Source: Candidatus Ozemibacter sibiricus (GTDB lineage Bacteria; Muiribacteriota; Ozemobacteria; Ozemobacterales; Ozemobacteraceae). From it: a stretch of 64,000 bases of DNA. Position numbers and translations under genes: made by a program. The DNA lies in contig QOQW01000003.1 in the NCBI GenBank assembly GCA_003327425.1, forward strand, positions 124,001 through 188,000, read 5' to 3'. The first letter of the stretch is position 1. Every line of letters begins with the position of its first letter. This document shows, piece after piece, positions 8,864 through 20,625 of this stretch. Below the pieces are notes generated by a model. The model did not search any database, was not told the origin of the DNA, and worked only from the letters and a program-made list of their open reading frames with translations.

Positions 8864-10939
8864 ATGGCCGAAGGTTCCTGGTTTCTTCCCCCCGACGCGG
8901 TCGGGCAGCGACTGCGAGCGGCGCTGCATCAGCCGGGCGGCGATCAGGCCGCGACGCTGGCCCGCCTGGCCGATCTGTACCGCCTCGATACGCTGGCCGG
9001 CCTGCGCGCGGCGCGCCATGGCTGGCTGGGCGCCTCGTTCTCGGCCATGGAGCTGCTGACCACGATCTACCACGCCTTCATTCCCGAGCCCGCCCGCCCC
9101 ATCACCGAGCGGAACGCCCTGATCCTGTCGAAAGGCCACGCCGCGATGGCCCAGTATGCGGTGCTGGCGGGCCTGGGCGCCTTGCCGCGCGAACGCCTGC
9201 TGACCTACAAGGACTGGCAGGGCCTGCCAGCGCACTGCGACCGCACCGTGCCCGGGGTCGATGCCGACAGCGGTTCGCTGGGCATGGGCCTGTCGAAGGG
9301 GGTCGGCCTCGCCCTGGCCCACCGGGCGGCCGGGCGTCCCCATCGGGTCTTCGTCATCCTCGGCGATGGCGAGCTGCAGGAAGGCCAGGTCTTCGAGTCG
9401 CTGCTCACGCTCCGTTCCCAGAATCTGCGCGCCTGCCTGCCGATCATCGACCGCAACCTGCTGCAGACCGACAGTCAGACCGCCGAGATCAAGGATGCCG
9501 AAGACTGGGCGTCGGTCTTGCGCGGCATCGGCTTCCTGCCGGTCGCGGTCGACGGCCATGACCCTGGCGCCCTGCTGGCCCTCCTGCGCCAACCCAATCA
9601 GGGCCCCCGCCCCCTGGCCGTGCTCGCCCACACCCGCAAAGGCCAGGGCAGCCTGGTGACCGTGATGCCCTCCGATACCCCGCGCCGGGCGGGAATCTGG
9701 CATGGTCGCATCCCTGACGATCGGGAATATGCCGAGATGGTCGACGAACTGGTCGAGCGGATCGACGATGCGGAGCTGCGGGCCGCCTGGCAGGCCTTCC
9801 GCCCCACGCTCACCGCCGCCCCGGCCCTCTCGGCCACCGCCGAACCGGCGGGGCCGGTCGCCACCGCGTCGACCGCCGGGCCGACCACCGCGCCGACCGA
9901 CCCCGCCGCCACCGGGGCCTGCTCCACTGGCGAAGGCTTCGGGGAAGCGCTCGTGGCCCTGGCCGAGCGGTTCCCCGGCTTCCATGTGCTCGATGCCGAT
10001 CTCGAGAAAGCCTGCCGGCTGACCGCCTTCGCCCGCGCCTGCCCCGACCGGTTCCACGAAGTGGGCATCAGCGAGCAGGACATGGCCTCGATCGCGGCCG
10101 GCCTCGGGTTGGGCGGCCGCATCGCCGTGGTCAACACCTACGCCGCGTTCCTGCGACGGGCCATCGACCAGATGGCGGCGGCGGCGGCCGAACGCCTGCC
10201 CGTCATCTTCGCCGGGCATTATGCCGGCCTCGATTACACGACCGACGGCAAATCCCACCAATCGCTGCAGGATATCGGACTGGTGCGGGCCCTCGGCGAG
10301 TTCGACCTCTTCGAACCGATCACCGCCGACGAAGCGGGTCTCGTGTTGAACCATCTGCTGGAGCGCTTCACGGCCGACCTGACCGCCGGACGGCCCTCGC
10401 GCCCCGCTTACGTGCGCCTGCATCGCACACCGGTCCCCGAGCTGCCAACGCTGCTGCCGGCCCCCGCCGACGGCTCCCCTTCCCCCAGCATCCATCCTCA
10501 GGGCGCGAGCGCCGCACCGGGAACCGCGCCCACCCCCGCCCCGCGCCCCCTGGTGGTCCAGGGCAAGCACCCAGCCGTCGGCACCTTGTTCGCGGCCAGC
10601 CCGCAGTTCGTAGCTCTGGCGCTGCGGCTGCAGAAGCGCCTGCACGACGCCGGACGACCGATCGACGTCATCGGCGTCAGCCACTACGCCGGCGGGGAAG
10701 GACCGGACAGTCTGGCCGCCCTCGCCCACTGCGCCCCCCGACCGATCAGCCTGGAAAGCCACCTGCCGGTCGGCGGCCTGGCCGACCTGCTGCGCCCGTG
10801 GTGCCGTGAGCCCGTGCTGGCCCTGGGCCCGACCTGCCAGACCGGCTCGGCCCGCCGCTTCGACGACCTGCTGACCGCTCATCGGCTGCGGGAAGACGAC
10901 CTGTTCCCGCGCCTGTGCGAGCACCTGGACCGACCATGA
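8864..10939 (+). CDS. tkt: Single-chain transketolase
   Basis: Transketolase moves two-carbon ketol units between sugar phosphates in the pentose phosphate pathway using thiamine diphosphate (ThDP). This 691-aa chain has the ThDP domain with GDGE (167-170) and the Asn of IIDRN (N198), a pyrimidine-binding domain with the activating Glu in GISEQDM (E404), and a C-terminal domain. Two Ala/Pro/Thr-rich linkers (about 313-356 and 526-565) join the domains. The sequence resembles the split two-subunit type more than the classical long enzyme, so it may be a fusion of half-genes. The ATG at 8864 has GAGAGG 8 bases upstream; GTG 8855 and ATG 8858 sit too close to it. It overlaps the msrBA gene by ATGA. 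Confidence 0.88.
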
Positions 10940-11913
10940 CGCCCGCCCCCCGCCCGTTCCTGCTCCTGCTGGCCATGCTCCTGGCCATCGGGGCATTCAT
11001 GCTGACAGGAGAAGAACCCATGAAACTGAATCCTCTGACGCCCGAAGAAGCCCGTGTCATCCTGCACAAAGGCACCGAGCCTCCATTCTCGGGCCAGTAT
11101 CACGACCATCATGCCACCGGCACCTACCACTGCCGGCAGTGCGATGCCCCGCTCTATCGGTCGGCCGACAAATTCGACTCCGGCTGCGGCTGGCCCAGCT
11201 TCGATGATGAGATCCCCGGCGCCGTACGCCGCCAGCCCGATGCCGACGGACGGCGCACCGAAATCGTGTGTGCGCGCTGCGGCGGGCATCTCGGCCATGT
11301 GTTCCTGGGCGAAGGCTTCACCCCCAAGAACACCCGGCATTGCGTCAACTCGCTGTCGCTGGCCTTCCGGCCGGCCGAGTCCGTTGCGTCCACGGCCAGC
11401 GGGGTCGGCAGCGGCACATCACCCGCGACCTCCCGCGGGCGGGCCATCTTCGCGGGTGGCTGTTTCTGGGGCGTGGAGCACCTCATGCAGCAGCAGGAAG
11501 GCGTGATCGAGGTCACCTCGGGCTACATCGGCGGCCACACCGAGAACCCCACCTATCGCGAGGTCTGCAGCCACCAGACCGGCCACGCCGAGGCCGTCGA
11601 GGTGATCTATGACCCCGCGCGGGTCAGCTATGAAACCCTGGCCAGGCTGTTCTTCGAGATCCATGATCCGACGCAAGCCGATGGCCAGGGCCCCGACCTC
11701 GGCGACCAGTACCGTTCGGAAATCTTCTACCTCGATGAGCACCAGAAAGCCGTGGCCTTGCAGCTCATCGAACAGTTGCGCGCCCAGGGCCTGGCCGTGG
11801 TGACCAGGGTGACGCCCGCCGGCCGCTTCTGGAAAGCCGAAGACTACCATCAGGATTACTACGTGAAAAAAGGGGGGACCCCCTACTGCCATCGCCGGGT
11901 CAAGCGGTTCTGA
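10936..11913 (+). CDS. msrBA: Exported MsrB-MsrA fusion methionine sulfoxide reductase
   Basis: This repairs oxidised methionine: MsrB acts on the R- and MsrA on the S-sulfoxide. The 325-aa protein starts with a signal peptide or anchor ([17 protein letters not shown]), placing repair in the periplasm. The MsrB domain (about 35-150) has the Zn cysteine pairs CRQC and CARC and the catalytic Cys136 in RHCVNS. MsrA (about 170-320) has the catalytic Cys176 in GGCFWGVEH. The order is B then A, the less common arrangement of the fusion. The ATG at 10936 shares ATGA with the transketolase stop; a GTG at 10915 would extend into that gene and is rejected. Coupling to the NADPH-producing pentose phosphate pathway makes functional sense. 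Confidence 0.93.
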
Positions 11914-13020: not shown

Positions 13021-16000
13021 ATGAAGCGCACCCGTACCTCCGCCGGACAACTGCTATTTCTGGCCGTGTTGTCGGCGTTGCCATTGGCGATCATCTGGGC
13101 GGACGGCGTGCTGCGGCAGGGCTTCGTCCGCGAGCAGGAACGGCAGGACTGGGAACAGGATGTCGCCCGTCTGTTCGAGGGATTCCGCTCAGGGATGACC
13201 CTGGAAGGCCAGTATGCCACCATGGTCGAGCGCTTCCGCCGCCGCTTCCAACGAATCACGGAACCGGCCTGGGAACTGACCGCGAGCGAGCTGACGGCGC
13301 GATTTCGTGCCGCTTTCCCGCCCAGTCACCGACCGGCCAGCACCTTGCTGTACGGTTTCAAACCGCGCCATCGAGACGGGGGCTTCATCCCTCTGGCCGG
13401 CCCCGGCCTTGAAAGCCGCGGGGCCCGAGTGCTGGCCGAACTGACCGGATGGCTCTTGAGTCCGCCTGATCGGCGACCGCCGGCGAGTTCGAGCCTGATC
13501 AAGCGGTATCAGGCGATCTTCGGCCTGCAGATGCCGCTCGATCTGCTCGCGCAAGGACGCCAGGGACGCCTGACGCCCGCCTCGTTCTTCGGCCAGGAAG
13601 CCGTCTTCCTGTGGGATGCCCTGACCGGCGCCCGCGGTCAGGTGCTGGGCGCGTTCCTGGCCGTGCTCCCCTTCGAGCTGACCATGGGCGATCTGGCGTT
13701 GCGCCATGCCTTGCAGCGCGCCCATCGCCAGCACCCCGGCATGGTCCCGGTGTTGATCCCGCTGGCCGGCGAACCCCGGGAGCGGCCGATCCTGTTCCCG
13801 CGCGGCTACCGGCCTTCCCGCCGCTTCGTCCGGCTGGTCGAGCGGATCGCGCGGTGCCGAGATCGCGATCGGATCGCCCTGCCCGCGCAGGTTTCCGACT
13901 TCCCGCCCGGACATTGGGCGATCAGACGGTTCCCGGCGGCCGATGTCCCCTACGAATTGTGGGTCTTCCGCCGGTTTCCCCGCCGCCTGCCGCCCGAGAC
14001 GATCGCCGCCATGCAGCTCTGGGTGTTGATCGGTGGCGGCCTGTGGCTGATGCCCTTGCTTCGCCATCTGACCTCCCCCACCGGCTTCGCCCTGTCGATG
14101 CGGCAGTGGGTGATGACCTGCATGGTGTCTCTGGCCGTGCTGGCCCTGGCCGCCTTGCGCTTCGCCGGGGTGTACTATCTGGAAACCTCCACCGTGCGGC
14201 AGGCCCGCGACCGGATCGCCCAGGCCCGCGCCGCCCTGGAAGCCATCGACACCGGTGTCAGCAGCATCTTCGACCATTTCGGTCGGGTCTGCCGTCATCT
14301 CGCCTACGATCCCCAGTGGGTGGCGACCCTGTTCTCCTCTGACCCGGCCCAGGCCGCCGGCGCCTTCACCACGGCCAGGTCGCATTTGACCCGCCAGCAC
14401 CCCAGACTCCCCCTGGACTATCTGCTGCGATTCCAAGCCGATGCCGAGATGCGAGGGGAAGTGCTGGCCGCCACCGACCACGAGCGCCGGGCCGGTCAGG
14501 CCGTATTGCTGATCCTGCGTCCGTTCATGCAAGGAGCCGCCGGCCAGCTCGCCAGCGATCCTCCCCTCCTCGTTCCGGGCGACGCCCCAGCGGTCGCCTC
14601 CCTCCCTCTTACCGATGGGTTCGGAACCGCTGCGGCCGCCGCCGCGGGCGAGCCTCGCCCCCCGCCGACGGCTGGGGACGACCACCGTGATGCCCTCCCT
14701 GAGCCCTTTCCCGCCGAGACGAATACACCGGCGACCGCGCAGGCGACGCCGACCGACTCCTCCGGCCCCGCTCGCCACGGCCTCGAACCGGAACGCTCCG
14801 GCCCGTCCCGGCGGGGAACGGATACCCTGTTCGCCGACTTCCTGCGTTCCTCGCTCCACCCGATCGCCTTCCGGCGGTTTCTGCGGTTGCGGCAGCAACC
14901 CGCTTTGATGCCCTCCATCCGCCGGCCGCTCCTGCAGTACTACGATTTCCTCGCCACCGGGAAGCGCTTCAGCGGAGCGCTGGTCTTCCTGTCCGATGCG
15001 GCGACCGCCTACCGTCGGTACCTCCAGCTCGCCATGCCCGGTCTGGCCCTGAGCCGCCAGGGGTGGTACGCCATCGGCGAACGGACCGCCGAGGGCTGCC
15101 GTCTGCTCCCGCCCGGTCTCGGCGCTGCCGAGCGCAGCCGGTTCGGGCGACGGTTGGAACGGCTGATGCAGGTCGCGGCGCGGGCCGGCTCGACCCAGGA
15201 GGAACGCGCGGGCGGCTTCTCGCTGCTGGCGGTGCCCTGCCTCCATGCCCAGGGGTTCGTGCTGGGCGCGGCCATTCCCCTCGACGATCTGGAGGTCTGG
15301 CGGAGCCATCGCTGGCGTCAGCTCAGCGTCGCGCTTCTGAGCTTCCTGGGGCTGGTCCTGTGGCTGGGCTGGGCCACCGCCAGCCATCTGCTCGACCCGT
15401 TGCGCGAAGTCGAGCATGGTTTGCGCCAGGTGGCGAGGGGCAACCTCGACCTCACCATGACCCTTGATCGGGACGATGAACTAGGAGATCTCTCGGCGAC
15501 CTTCGATCGGCTGTTGCAGGGCCTCCGCGAGCGACGCGAACTGGGCCGATTCGTCTCCGGCCAGGTCGATGCCCTGGTGGCTGCTCGCGATCATGCCGCC
15601 GTCCTGCGCCCGCAACGCCGGATGACCACCGTCCTGGCATCGGATCTGCGGGAGTTCACCACCTTGTCGGAGCGGCATCCGCCGGCAACCATCGTCGCGA
15701 TGCTCAACCGCCACCACCAGGAGATGGTCGAAGCCATCCTGGCCCACCAGGGATCGGTCGAACTCTTCATCGGCGATGCGGTGATCGCGGTCTTCCACGA
15801 TCTGGAAGGCGAGGATGGGCCGCGACGAGCCGTCGCGGCAGCCCGCGAGATGCGACGCCGCCACCGCCGCATCCTGGCCGAGCGCACCGCGGCCGGCCTG
15901 TTCCCCTATGGAATGGGAGTCGGGATCGATCGCGGCGAAGTGCTGATCGGCACCTTCGGGCGGGAAGGGAAACTCGAGCATACCCTGCTGGGACCACCGC

Positions 16001-16152
16001 GCCAGCGCGCGGAGGCCCTCGAAGCCGCCTCCAAGCGAGGCCGCCACAGCCTGATCGTGGTTTCTCCGGCCGTGGCGCGCGCCTGCCCCGAGCTGGCCTG
16101 CGTGCCCATCACCTCTGAGGCCCTCGAAATCGTCGAGGAGGAGAGGGGATGA
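13021..16152 (+). CDS. Membrane class III nucleotide cyclase, C1-like half (lacks base- and transition-state residues)
   Basis: This 1,043-aa protein has a membrane helix (about 10-28), an extracytoplasmic domain (to about 330), two helices (331-347, 362-387), a second extracytoplasmic domain, a fourth helix (769-792), a HAMP linker (about 790-845) and a class III adenylate/guanylate cyclase domain (866-1030). Both metal-binding aspartates are present: D875 in ASDLREFT and D919 in FIGDAVIAVF. The other half of the site is gone: the purine Lys is L915, and the canonical D-T-V-N-x3-R reads P992, Q995, A999. It therefore cannot form a complete homodimer by family rules, but could supply the metal-binding half to the next gene's product, which it overlaps by ATGA. 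Confidence 0.9.
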   Translation: MKRTRTSAGQLLFLAVLSALPLAIIWADGVLRQGFVREQERQDWEQDVARLFEGFRSGMTLEGQYATMVERFRRRFQRITEPAWELTASELTARFRAAFPPSHRPASTLLYGFKPRHRDGGFIPLAGPGLESRGARVLAELTGWLLSPPDRRPPASSSLIKRYQAIFGLQMPLDLLAQGRQGRLTPASFFGQEAVFLWDALTGARGQVLGAFLAVLPFELTMGDLALRHALQRAHRQHPGMVPVLIPLAGEPRERPILFPRGYRPSRRFVRLVERIARCRDRDRIALPAQVSDFPPGHWAIRRFPAADVPYELWVFRRFPRRLPPETIAAMQLWVLIGGGLWLMPLLRHLTSPTGFALSMRQWVMTCMVSLAVLALAALRFAGVYYLETSTVRQARDRIAQARAALEAIDTGVSSIFDHFGRVCRHLAYDPQWVATLFSSDPAQAAGAFTTARSHLTRQHPRLPLDYLLRFQADAEMRGEVLAATDHERRAGQAVLLILRPFMQGAAGQLASDPPLLVPGDAPAVASLPLTDGFGTAAAAAAGEPRPPPTAGDDHRDALPEPFPAETNTPATAQATPTDSSGPARHGLEPERSGPSRRGTDTLFADFLRSSLHPIAFRRFLRLRQQPALMPSIRRPLLQYYDFLATGKRFSGALVFLSDAATAYRRYLQLAMPGLALSRQGWYAIGERTAEGCRLLPPGLGAAERSRFGRRLERLMQVAARAGSTQEERAGGFSLLAVPCLHAQGFVLGAAIPLDDLEVWRSHRWRQLSVALLSFLGLVLWLGWATASHLLDPLREVEHGLRQVARGNLDLTMTLDRDDELGDLSATFDRLLQGLRERRELGRFVSGQVDALVAARDHAAVLRPQRRMTTVLASDLREFTTLSERHPPATIVAMLNRHHQEMVEAILAHQGSVELFIGDAVIAVFHDLEGEDGPRRAVAAAREMRRRHRRILAERTAAGLFPYGMGVGIDRGEVLIGTFGREGKLEHTLLGPPRQRAEALEAASKRGRHSLIVVSPAVARACPELACVPITSEALEIVEEERG

Positions 16153-19100
16153 TGCACCAGCCCGAATCCTCCCGCCCCCACCTGTCCCCTGCGGCGGCGC
16201 CGGCCGACGCCAGAGGCGAACGTCAGGGACGCCCGCGATCTTCCTGGACGCTGCGAGGGTTGGGCGTCCTGTTCGTCGGGTTGCCCCTGATCCTGGGAGT
16301 GGTCAACGACCGCATCGCCCTCTCTCTCGCCCGACAGCAAGCCGAGAAACGCGCCCTGGACCAGGCTCGGCGAGTGGTCGCCACCCACCTACAGGGCATC
16401 TCGATCCCCCACCAGATCAGCCTGACCCTGGAAGGATTCCTGAAGGAGGCCGAGCGCCTCACTCGCGAGGGGGACCCACCGGCGATCGCCGCCCGCCTGC
16501 GCCGCCTCCACCGTCGTCGCCTGGCTCGCCGGCTGCCCCGTCACGATCTGTGCCTGGCCCGGTTCGATCCCTTCCTGGAACGACCACAACGGCTGCTCAC
16601 CCACCAGGACGGCCTGGGCTTCACCGGCCCGCTCGCCACGGCCTTTTTCGAAGCCCTGCCCCGCTCCTTCCTGGCCCCGCCGCTTCTCGACCGGGTTCTG
16701 ACCGGTCTGCGCGAAGCCCTTGCCTTTCCCGTCGGACCGGAGCTCTGGCAGAGCGAGGCGGCCGGACAACTGACGCTGATGAATGCCCGGGAAGGCCGGC
16801 GTGGCCTGTTCTGGAGCACTCTCCCCCGCTTCAGCCCTACGACCGACCGCTATCGGCTGCTGCTGGCCTGCGTTCTCGATCTGACCGCCCTGCCGCGCGA
16901 TTATGCCGCCCGGCTCCTGGTGTCCCGATGGTCCAGACCGTATGTCGGCATCGGGTACCTGAGGCTGGGGCAGGAGCGGTCATTCGTCGCCTCCCGGTTC
17001 TTTCGGGGCCATCCCCGCTTGTTGCAGGATCTGCCAGCCCGGCTGGCCGCCCATCCCGAGCGTGAGATGCTCCAGCAAGAATCTGGACTCCTCATCCTGT
17101 CCCCTCCTCCTGCCCCTGGTCAAGGTCTGCGCTGGGTCGTCGCCATTCCCGTGGCCGCCACCGACACCGGTTCCTTGCTTCGACGGTATCCCTGGGTCTC
17201 CATCCAGATCCTGATCCTGGCCGGCCTCGGCACGCTGCTCGGACTGCGCGAGCGGGTGTTCCGGATCCCGATCCGCTGGTCGGTCAGCGCGATCCTGACG
17301 GGAACCTTCCTGCTGGTGGTCATCGGCCCCGGCGCCGGGCTCTACGCCATCGGACAGGCCGCTGCCGTCGAACTCGAAGAACGCGAACGACAGGAAGCCG
17401 GGCGGCGGCTGCACCAACGCCTGCAATCCTGCGATCAGATTTTGTTGAGCTATCAGGGGAGGGTGATCCAGGCCATGCGGCAGGTCGCCGCTCGCCCCTC
17501 CACCCTGGCTCACCTCGAGGCAGAACTGGCCTCGCCGTCCGATGGTCGGCTGCGGGCGATCGCCAATTCCCTCTTCGACGTCGCGCCCGACATCGTCGGC
17601 CGGGAAGGGGTGCGCGATTTCACCGGCATCCTCATCGCCGTCGGCGCGGGCAATCTATGCCGGGTCTGGATCAACTCCGACTCCGGACAGAACAGCGAAG
17701 CCGCCGGCGAACCGTTGGTCCGCCTGATCGCCCCCTTCTCGCGACAGGCCTGGGCCATCATGGAAAGACGCTGGCAGAACGCCCGCAAGGATTCGTCGCC
17801 CCTTCCCGGTCGGACGCCCCTCCCCCCCGCCTCGCCGGGCCCAGAGCGCCTCGATTTGCAGCTGGTCCGCGATGAGATCATGATCGAGGATTTGCGACGA
17901 CTGTTCTCTGGCATGGTCGACAGCGACCTCTACACCCGATTGCTTTTCTACCCCGAGAGGCAGACCCAGTTGACGATGAACATCGGCCGCGTCTTCACCC
18001 TGGGCACGTTCGTCCCCCACCGACGCCACCCCCGGTTCCTGCTGTCCTGGCTGTTCGACGAACAGATGGCCCGCGGGACCTTCGTCGAACGCGTCACCCG
18101 CACCTGGCCCGAATCGTCGAAAGGGCGGATCTTCCTGCTCAATCGCGAAGTGCCGTCGCTGCCCAGCGAACCCCCGGGATACGACCGGCACCCCGGGCTG
18201 CGTTCGCTGGTCGACCGGTCCCGCGAGGGAATGCAGGTTCGCCGGGAGATCTACCGCGGCCCGCAGGGCGATGAGGTCCTGGAGACACTGCCCAGCCAGT
18301 ATCAGAATACCTTGCTGTTCGCCGGAACCGAGGAAGCGGGCAATCCCGCCCTGACGGTGCGCCGCGGGTTCTTCACCCTGGCGACGCTGGGATTCGCCCT
18401 GGCGATCGGCCTGGCGCTGCTGGCCACCTGGTTCTTCCTGGCTCCCCTGGGCAGGATCCTCGCGGCTCTGCAACGGTTCCAGCCCGGACAACCCGTGGAA
18501 GAACAGCCGGATGCCGCCCGCGGCGACGAATTCGGCACGCTGGCGACCGCCTTCCAGGCCATGGGCGAAGGGATCCGCCAGAAGGATGTGCTGGGGCGCT
18601 TCGTTTCGCCGACCGTGCGGCGTCTGGTCGCCGATGAGGAATTCCGGCGACGGGCCCGGGCCGGCGAGAACCGGCAGGTGACCGTGCTGTTCTCGGAAGT
18701 GGGCGACCCGGCGGCAGCGGACCACGAGGCCACCGTCGAAGCCGTCTTCCACCGACTGGAACGGCATTGGAGCGCGCTGCACGCCGTCGCCGAAGAGACG
18801 GGCGGGGAGATCAACAAGGTGATGGGCGACAAGATCCTGGTCGTCTTCGATCACGAAGCCCTGGGGGGTGCTACCGCCGCCGCCCGGGCCGCGGTGCAGG
18901 CGGCCTGGCGGCTGCGCCAGCGCCTGCTGGCCGATGGGCTGCCGGCGCCCTTGATCGGGCTCAATGCCGGACCGGTGATCGCCGGGTTGATGGGATCGGC
19001 CAATTTCCGCCTCGATTATACCGTCATCGGCGACACGGTCAACCTCGCCTCGCGGCTGGCCACCCTCGCCCACACCGTAGGGGGAAGCGGCATCGTCCTG

Positions 19101-19241
19101 GCGGGCGCGCTGGTCGACCTCCTGCCCGGCACCTTGACCGTGACCCGCCTGCCGTTCACCCGCGTGAAAGGCAAGACCCAGGCCGTCGAGGCCTATCCGC
19201 TCGAAGGAGTGACCGACGCTGGCAGCGGCTCGAGAAGCTGA
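16149..19241 (+). CDS. Membrane class III nucleotide cyclase, C2-like half (first metal Asp replaced by Glu)
   Basis: This 1,030-aa protein is a divergent paralogue of the preceding cyclase with the same plan: helix 34-52, sensor domain, helices 347-366 and 377-400, a second sensor domain, helix 740-768, HAMP and C-terminal cyclase (843-1020). The substrate half of the catalytic site is intact: K890 in INKVMGDK, then D962, N965 and R969 in VIGDTVNLASRL. The second metal Asp is D894, but the first metal position reads Glu (E850 in LFSEVGD). Together with the upstream protein all canonical residues are present once. The ATG at 16149 overlaps the upstream stop by four bases, fitting stoichiometric co-synthesis. 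The product is probably cAMP, judged from Lys/Asp, and is unproven. Confidence 0.9.
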   Translation: MMHQPESSRPHLSPAAAPADARGERQGRPRSSWTLRGLGVLFVGLPLILGVVNDRIALSLARQQAEKRALDQARRVVATHLQGISIPHQISLTLEGFLKEAERLTREGDPPAIAARLRRLHRRRLARRLPRHDLCLARFDPFLERPQRLLTHQDGLGFTGPLATAFFEALPRSFLAPPLLDRVLTGLREALAFPVGPELWQSEAAGQLTLMNAREGRRGLFWSTLPRFSPTTDRYRLLLACVLDLTALPRDYAARLLVSRWSRPYVGIGYLRLGQERSFVASRFFRGHPRLLQDLPARLAAHPEREMLQQESGLLILSPPPAPGQGLRWVVAIPVAATDTGSLLRRYPWVSIQILILAGLGTLLGLRERVFRIPIRWSVSAILTGTFLLVVIGPGAGLYAIGQAAAVELEERERQEAGRRLHQRLQSCDQILLSYQGRVIQAMRQVAARPSTLAHLEAELASPSDGRLRAIANSLFDVAPDIVGREGVRDFTGILIAVGAGNLCRVWINSDSGQNSEAAGEPLVRLIAPFSRQAWAIMERRWQNARKDSSPLPGRTPLPPASPGPERLDLQLVRDEIMIEDLRRLFSGMVDSDLYTRLLFYPERQTQLTMNIGRVFTLGTFVPHRRHPRFLLSWLFDEQMARGTFVERVTRTWPESSKGRIFLLNREVPSLPSEPPGYDRHPGLRSLVDRSREGMQVRREIYRGPQGDEVLETLPSQYQNTLLFAGTEEAGNPALTVRRGFFTLATLGFALAIGLALLATWFFLAPLGRILAALQRFQPGQPVEEQPDAARGDEFGTLATAFQAMGEGIRQKDVLGRFVSPTVRRLVADEEFRRRARAGENRQVTVLFSEVGDPAAADHEATVEAVFHRLERHWSALHAVAEETGGEINKVMGDKILVVFDHEALGGATAAARAAVQAAWRLRQRLLADGLPAPLIGLNAGPVIAGLMGSANFRLDYTVIGDTVNLASRLATLAHTVGGSGIVLAGALVDLLPGTLTVTRLPFTRVKGKTQAVEAYPLEGVTDAGSGSRS

Positions 19242-20284
19242 TCAGGAAGATCGGCAGCCAGGAGCGGCCGGGCCGGGGTCGGGCGGCCGACCGCCCGACG
19301 CAGCCAGGCCGCCCGGCGCCGGGCCTCCGCGATGAGATGGGCCTGGGACATCGCCCGCGGATGGAAGAGGCGGGCGGCCTGCTCGAACGCATGGATGGCG
19401 GCCTCACCGTCGGCCGGCGCCCCGGCGGTCGCTTCGAGCAGGGCCCCCAGAGCGGCCCAGGCCCGACCGCTGCCCAGCCTGGCCCCGACGTCAAAACACT
19501 GCCGGGCCACCGCCGGATCGCATGGCAGGCCGCCCCACCCCTTCAGGTGGAACAGCCCCAGCACGTACCACGCGTCGCCCAGCCCCTGGCGGGCCGCTTC
19601 CTCCACATATCGCAAGGCCTGTTCGAAATCGGGAGTCAGATCGCGCTGCCCGCTCATCAAGGTCTGGGCGCACCGCAGACGAGCGACGGCGCTGCCCTGG
19701 GCGATCGCCCGTCTATACCACATGCGAGCTTGCTGTACCATCGACAGGGTGAGATTTTCGCGAATCAACAGATCGCCCATCAGGATTTGGGCAGCCACAT
19801 GCCCGGCGGAGGCCACCTGTTCGAGCCGACGCATACCTTCGTGCAGATCGGCCTCGCCGCCGATCCCCCAGATCTGGCAGACGCTCAGGCGATAGGCCGC
19901 CTCGGGATCGCCCCGCTCCGCCCCGACCTGGAACCAATGCCGGGCCATGGCCAGCGCCTCCGGTGTGGTCGCGGACAGCAGGAGATGATGGCCCAGGAAG
20001 GCCGGCGCCCTGGCATCCCCGCGGGCGATGGCGGCCTCGCAGGCCTGGCGATCGAACGGCGGGGGCGGAGCCGGCGGCGTTGCCACGACTTCAGGAAGCA
20101 GTCGGGCCGAGCGCACGGGTTCCGCCGCCGCCGTCTCTGGCGATGCCGGCTCGGCCAGGAGGGCGACCGCCCCGCTGGCGACCAGCACCAGGAGCAGGAA
20201 CGCACGGCTCGTCGTCCAGGCGGCAGGTCTGCCTCCAGAACCAGCGTGCGCCGCTGGTGGGCATGTTCCCTTGCTCTCGTCCAT
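19193..20284 (-). CDS. Membrane-anchored Sel1-like repeat protein
   Basis: The 363-aa protein from ATG 20284 (GAGG about 8 bases upstream) has a short cytoplasmic start, a membrane helix (about 25-45, AFLLLVLVASGAVALLA) and Sel1-like repeats at about 75-320 (GDPEAAYRLSVCQIWGIGG; GLGDAWYVLGLFHLKGWGG). Longer in-frame extension to 20563 lacks support. Its 3' end overlaps the convergent cyclase gene by 49 bases. Sel1 repeats bind partner proteins, often in envelope signalling or quality control; no partner is known. Confidence 0.75.
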   Translation of the reverse strand: MDESKGTCPPAAHAGSGGRPAAWTTSRAFLLLVLVASGAVALLAEPASPETAAAEPVRSARLLPEVVATPPAPPPPFDRQACEAAIARGDARAPAFLGHHLLLSATTPEALAMARHWFQVGAERGDPEAAYRLSVCQIWGIGGEADLHEGMRRLEQVASAGHVAAQILMGDLLIRENLTLSMVQQARMWYRRAIAQGSAVARLRCAQTLMSGQRDLTPDFEQALRYVEEAARQGLGDAWYVLGLFHLKGWGGLPCDPAVARQCFDVGARLGSGRAWAALGALLEATAGAPADGEAAIHAFEQAARLFHPRAMSQAHLIAEARRRAAWLRRAVGRPTPARPLLAADLPDQLLEPLPASVTPSSG

Positions 20285-20625
20285 TCCGACTTCCTCGCTC
20301 CCTTTCCCAAGATATTCTCTCACAGGCGTGGCAGCCCTGCCAGTCGGCCCCACACCCGAACTACCCCTGGGAAAAGGCGGGGGGCGCCCAGGGTCCCCCG
20401 CCCTCGCTGGCGACATTTCCACGAGCCCTGGAGCGGCCGGCGGCAACGCGTTCGGCCCGCCGATCACCCGCTTCGCCAGGGTCCAGTCGATGGAGCGTTG
20501 CGGACCACGAGACCTCCCGCTTGCCGTCAACCCTGAATCGGCGATTGCATTCCCGGTCAGCATCGACTACCCTGGAAAGAGCAGGACCGTGGAGCAACCA
20601 CCTGATCAACGAGGGGAGGGAAACC
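20285..20625. other. Divergent intergenic region with G-rich stem-loop
   Basis: These 341 bases separate the divergent Sel1 and carboxypeptidase genes and contain no credible gene. A hairpin with arms GGCGGGGG (20376-20383) and CCCCCGCC (20395-20402) and an 11-base loop is visible. No strong promoter pair was found; a minus-strand TATCTT near 20309 is a possible -10 for the Sel1 gene. Confidence 0.45.

Follow-up and report, generated by a model that had tools for sequence, protein, structure and literature searches.

As judged from their sequences, two adjacent genes, A and B, very probably encode a transmembrane adenylyl cyclase of class IIIb that works as an obligate heterodimer of their two products. 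They are located in the window, the 64,000-nucleotide stretch of the Candidatus Ozemibacter sibiricus genome analyzed here. By alignment, A retains the two-metal half of the catalytic site, and B retains the Lys/Thr substrate half together with the Asn/Arg pair and a VKGK motif (Table 1). An initial annotation had proposed such a heterodimer on the basis of complementary residue losses. Both open reading frames, the four-base gene overlap and every residue that it named were found in place (D875, D919, L915, P992, Q995, and A999 in A; E850, K890, D962, N965, and R969 in B). A strong GAGGAGAGGGG element is located before the overlap.

Table 1 Features of the cyclase gene pair (window coordinates).
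Feature	Coordinates	Strand	Details and evidence
Gene A: membrane cyclase subunit, predicted metal-donating (C1-like)	13021..16152	+	1043 aa; ORF, Pfam, residue census
Gene B: membrane cyclase subunit, predicted substrate/transition-state-donating (C2-like)	16149..19241	+	1030 aa; ORF, Pfam, residue census
4-base ATGA overlap, stop of A / start of B	16149..16152	+	Sequence
HAMP linker of A, residues 787-837	15379..15531	+	PF00672, E=1.4e-9
HAMP linker of B, residues 760-811	18426..18581	+	PF00672, E=3.1e-6
Class III cyclase domain of A, residues 869-1018	15625..16074	+	PF00211, E=4.5e-6
Class III cyclase domain of B, residues 841-1017	18669..19199	+	PF00211, E=1.9e-9
D875, first metal Asp (Me1), kept in A	15643..15645	+	Alignment, census
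L915, replaces substrate Lys in A	15763..15765	+	Alignment, census
D919, second metal Asp (Me2), kept in A	15775..15777	+	Alignment, census
T988, class IIIb substrate-specifying position, kept in A	15982..15984	+	Census; spacing from PMC4215837
Q995, replaces transition-state Asn in A	16003..16005	+	Alignment, census
A999, replaces transition-state Arg in A	16015..16017	+	Alignment, census
E850, replaces first metal Asp in B	18696..18698	+	Alignment, census
K890, substrate Lys, kept in B	18816..18818	+	Alignment, census
T958, class IIIb substrate-specifying residue of B	19020..19022	+	Census; spacing from PMC4215837
N965, transition-state Asn of B	19041..19043	+	Alignment, census
R969, transition-state Arg of B	19053..19055	+	Alignment, census
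V-K-G-K motif of B, residues 1006-1009	19164..19175	+	No counterpart in A; 118/121 B vs 2/121 A domains

The C-terminal part of both proteins is composed of a HAMP linker followed by a class III cyclase domain, as identified by Pfam, and the PF00211 bit scores of A (26.8) and B (37.8) both lie above the curated cut-off of 21.9. By hydropathy, A has three clear membrane segments and B has four, about four per half, and the two large inter-segment regions of each subunit are presumably located outside the cytoplasm. The same layout, with four membrane segments by hydropathy, is found in intact relatives (L162-L167). A profile comparison of A with B gives a near end-to-end alignment of 887 columns at 22% identity, which fits two whole-gene paralogues. 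In the sensor halves of A, B, the intact relatives and one fused protein, Pfam returned no credible match beyond the HAMP and cyclase domains. In addition, at E<1e-3, a profile of the N-terminal half of the intact relatives matched just 32 of 230 pair members, indicating that the sensors are strongly diverged. AlphaFold monomers of full-length A and B, obtained from three-row alignments, reached pLDDT values of 35 and 37, and both models are unusable. At its 3' end, gene B overlaps by ~49 bases with a converging neighbor gene (19193-20563, minus strand) that has putative Sel1-like repeats, judged by eye. Upstream of the pair, a putative fused peptide methionine sulfoxide reductase of the MsrB-MsrA type was likewise recognized by eye (10915-11913, plus strand).

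The residues of A and B were placed in the class III motifs by PDB and Pfam alignments. A possesses both metal aspartates, Me1 (D875) and Me2 (D919), together with T988, and lacks the Lys, Asn, Arg, and VKGK. B possesses K890, T958, N965, R969, VKGK, and the Me2 aspartate D894, and lacks Me1, which is replaced by E850. The full catalytic set of a single domain is present in neither protein and is complete for the pair together. The list given in the initial annotation was correct for the residues it named, but left out VKGK (K1007-G-K1009 in B) and the retained D894. Moreover, its assignment of P992 and D962 as the substrate-specifying aspartate position gave these residues the wrong role. In Ma1120, the substrate-specifying residue (D157) precedes the Asn position (A164) by seven residues, and R168 follows (PMC4215837). 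By this spacing, T988 in A and T958 in B are the second substrate residues, as in class IIIb, and P992/D962 occupy a separate "GD" aspartate position three residues before the Asn.

The same division was found throughout a census of 121 recognizable cyclase pairs, adjacent or fused. One of these comes from a different family of the phylum, and the rest are from 12 Ozemobacteraceae (Riflebacteria) genomes. These genomes are probably mostly metagenome bins. The scan covered Riflebacteria, and similar pairs may exist in other phyla. The genome of the window (G000, a 5.68-Mb bin) contains 53 class III cyclase domains and 17 pairs lying side by side or in a single chain. A pair was scored as complementary when one member has both metal aspartates without Asn plus Arg and the other has Asn plus Arg without both metal aspartates. 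All 119 scorable pairs show this split, one three-gene array having been reassigned, so that the losses noted for the window co-occur in its homologues and chance can be dismissed as their source. The remaining two pairs, cut by contig ends, agree with the split as far as their sequence goes. Misalignment was also considered as the source of the losses and rejected, as the motifs can be recognized by eye and the trees exclude the scored columns.

Particularly, both Me1 and Me2 are Asp in every scorable A domain, and none of these domains keeps both Asn and Arg. Among the 121 B domains, the Lys is found in all 121 and the Thr in 120, Asn and Arg are present in 120/120, and both metal aspartates together occur in none. 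The Me2 Asp is retained in 70 of the 121 B proteins, including that of the window, and two B domains that retain Me1 (L111, L136) have lost Me2 instead. Loss of the Lys from A, which the initial annotation took as part of the pattern, holds for the window and for 62/121 A domains but is not universal, the other 59 keeping it. On these alignments, the defining losses are Asn/Arg and VKGK in A and, in B, one metal Asp, which is Me1 in nearly all cases. Whereas the A domain of the window lacks Lys, Asn, and Arg, 17 of the 121 A domains have lost just one of the three, and some A homodimers might therefore be weakly active, given that the natural cyclase Ma1120 lacks the Asn and is still active (PMC4215837).

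Two unseen genomes of the same family were used as a hold-out set, and the complementarity rule holds there for 26 of the 27 scorable pairs. It is broken once, by a fused protein (G029, L191, position 9457) whose first domain retains D, D, K, N, and R. The initial annotation had held that a homologue with a full residue set would contradict its reading; this domain matches by letter, yet its Thr is changed to Ser and the GD Asp and VKGK are lost. A single genome contains up to 28 different pairs. Outside the family, adjacent cyclase domains are rare among the matches listed (eight genomes sampled).

An apparent A-A pair (L065) was rejected as a counter-example, being in fact a three-gene array of A, A, and B in which the second A adjoins B. 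This array, from genome G001, places two different metal-side subunits beside one substrate-side subunit, which they possibly share. Another conserved three-gene array was observed in three genomes (L029, L080, and L147), where a third, intact cyclase of a divergent subfamily precedes a B-A pair. This third cyclase carries the motifs FTDVKG / KKIGDA, and a related protein (L158) has no predicted membrane segment.

The two sides of the pairs are constrained in a mirrored fashion. A domains have zero entropy at the metal aspartates, with the Asn position at the 93rd and the Arg position at the 82nd percentile of column variability, and B domains have zero entropy at Lys, Asn, and Arg, with Me1 at the 44th percentile. 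This is predicted by one shared active site and not by general decay. It also bears on the alternative that one member is a dead pseudo-cyclase, acting only as regulator or scaffold, with the activity coming from the homodimer of the other member or from unrelated intact cyclases. Many intact cyclases are indeed present in the genome, and non-cognate heterodimers are compatible with the sequence. That a fully dead orphan of B-side kin can arise is illustrated in G000 by a 786-aa pseudo-cyclase (L048, position 3918) with Gly at Me1, Glu at Me2, and Arg and His in place of the Asn and Arg. However, with an incomplete site in each half of the window pair, activity is not expected of either homodimer, and the kept halves are under near-absolute constraint whereas the missing halves drift freely. 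Moreover, 43 of the 121 pairs are single polypeptides, and inside contigs no unpaired A was seen except the extra A of the L065 array, other main-family ones lying near contig ends. We regard this alternative as very improbable.

The fused proteins are 1457-2681 aa long (typically about 2,000-2,700), the shortest running off contig ends, and all 43 have the A-B order with the metal half first. Reverse gene order is found in 26 split pairs. In 73 of the 78 split pairs, a start for the second gene is available from -40 to +60 bases of the stop of the first, and in 49 of the 78 the exact four-base overlap (NTGA) is available. The distance matrices of A and B correlate at r=0.77, against a permuted maximum of 0.10; within single genomes the correlation is 0.72-0.89, and 0 of 2000 permutations were as high. 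Identity between A and B averages 26% across pairs. The agreement of the matrices indicates that the pairs largely duplicate as units; the matching trees show co-inheritance rather than contact, since co-duplication without contact would also yield them.

In a FastTree phylogeny of 277 domains, with the scored catalytic columns left out, A and B form sister clades adjoining intact ~1000-aa cyclases of like layout. An IQ-TREE mixture model of 84 domains places A+B apart from the intact cyclases at 100/97, with the A clade at 87/90, and does not settle the inner branching order of B. On these trees, the main family goes back to a single ancient duplication, that of an intact cyclase of the homodimer type. 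Together with the near end-to-end alignment of A and B, this fits the earlier proposal of two specialized paralogues. The unpaired intact cyclases L162-L167, considered as counter-examples, are in fact the nearest intact relatives of the pairs.

Two further pairs, G003 L094 and G016 L160 (other family of the phylum), are placed among other intact cyclases, and trees constrained to place their A domains within the main A clade were rejected (AU p 6e-5 and 9e-5). In L094, the Arg of A is changed to Asp and its VKGK to LGE, and B has Thr at Me1 and Glu at Me2. In L160, the Asn of A is changed to Ser and its VKGK to DGK, and B has Lys at Me1. As both pairs lie outside the main A clade and each follows a like split logic, the split arose at least three times, in the main family and in L094 and L160, these two independently. 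The branching of the pairs beside intact cyclases of the same phylum, in trees that do not include animal sequences, points to convergence with the animal enzymes.

These data support the interpretation given in the initial annotation, with a heterodimer that we infer from sequence. The HAMP-linked catalytic domains of A and B would join head to tail in one heterodimer. Of its two sites, one would work, with A supplying the metals and B providing base recognition, transition-state and phosphate contacts, and the other would be a dead mirror site. Neither the A-A nor the B-B homodimer would be functional. Each subunit would carry its own pair of extracytoplasmic domains between the transmembrane helices, so that the output would be set by two different sensors. 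Translational coupling or fusion would keep the right partners together in cells with up to 28 pairs.

The Lys/Thr combination suggests that the product would be cAMP, made from ATP. A heterodimer producing cGMP or another cyclic nucleotide appears very improbable: the Thr at the second substrate position does occur in some guanylyl cyclases (PMC4215837) and the genome has 14 cNMP-binding domains against its 53 cyclase domains, but the first substrate position is Lys in all 121 B domains, an adenylyl signature, where guanylyl cyclases have Glu (PMC4215837). The same ratio in G000, with the cNMP-binding domains counted by PF00027, is an observation in its own right, as numerous inputs seem to feed into few effectors. 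That both domains are catalytically dead and serve only as dimerization or nucleotide-binding modules is extremely improbable, since the weak Pfam scores and the loss of half of each site are outweighed by the near invariance of the composite-site residues over ~120 divergent pairs and by the persistence of complementary halves in three separate origins, which a dead fold would not need.

According to a recent account, bacterial class III cyclases homodimerise, fused dimeric species are unknown in bacteria, and the advantage of duplication plus fusion is an open question (Schultz 2022; PMC9552081). Our full-text search of the open-access literature found no report of a bacterial heterodimeric or fused class III cyclase. 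The ~150 examples found here represent several stages: an intact single-gene relative, pairs that are split, reversed in order or fused, and one young pair of independent origin (G003 L094). At the scored positions, the A of this young pair has lost only VKGK and, by a single change, its Arg. It thus becomes directly testable how a homodimer turned into an obligate heterodimer and what is gained by fusion, and our results suggest that evolution arrived at the animal arrangement on more than one occasion. More tentatively, and on balance leaning against it, one may picture enzymes of the animal C1/C2 type as having arisen at least three times in one bacterial phylum, with up to 28 pairs per genome and many of them fused, as two-input detectors in which the degenerate site might be a regulatory pocket like the forskolin site.

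In animal C1/C2 enzymes, the metal aspartates lie on one half, and the Lys, the second substrate residue, the Asn/Arg pair and the C-terminal Lys motif lie on the other. Soluble guanylate cyclase alpha/beta and the chytrid rhodopsin guanylyl cyclase/NeoR are likewise class III obligate heterodimers of two gene products, but they are eukaryotic and guanylyl-specific and have other sensor domains. The bacterial homodimers Rv1625c/Cya, Pseudomonas CyaB, and Anabaena/Spirulina CyaC have the fold and motifs in common with A and B; they carry all residues on one chain and form two equal sites, whereas A and B carry half each. The intact ~1000-aa Ozemobacteraceae cyclases have the same TM/HAMP/cyclase layout as A and B. 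In catalytic arrangement, the bacterial pairs resemble the pseudoheterodimers of animal ADCY1-9, which are also membrane-bound, with complementary half-sites and one working site (inferred for the bacterial pairs), and which, like the 43 fused pairs, consist of a single chain with the metal half before the substrate half. Unlike ADCY, the bacterial pairs have about four hydrophobic segments and two large extracytoplasmic regions per half in place of six TM helices, possess HAMP linkers and the class IIIb Thr instead of the class IIIa Asp, and are often encoded by two separate genes, sometimes in reversed order. The pair would thus work like C1/C2, yet by TM count and substrate residue it is no member of the ADCY family.
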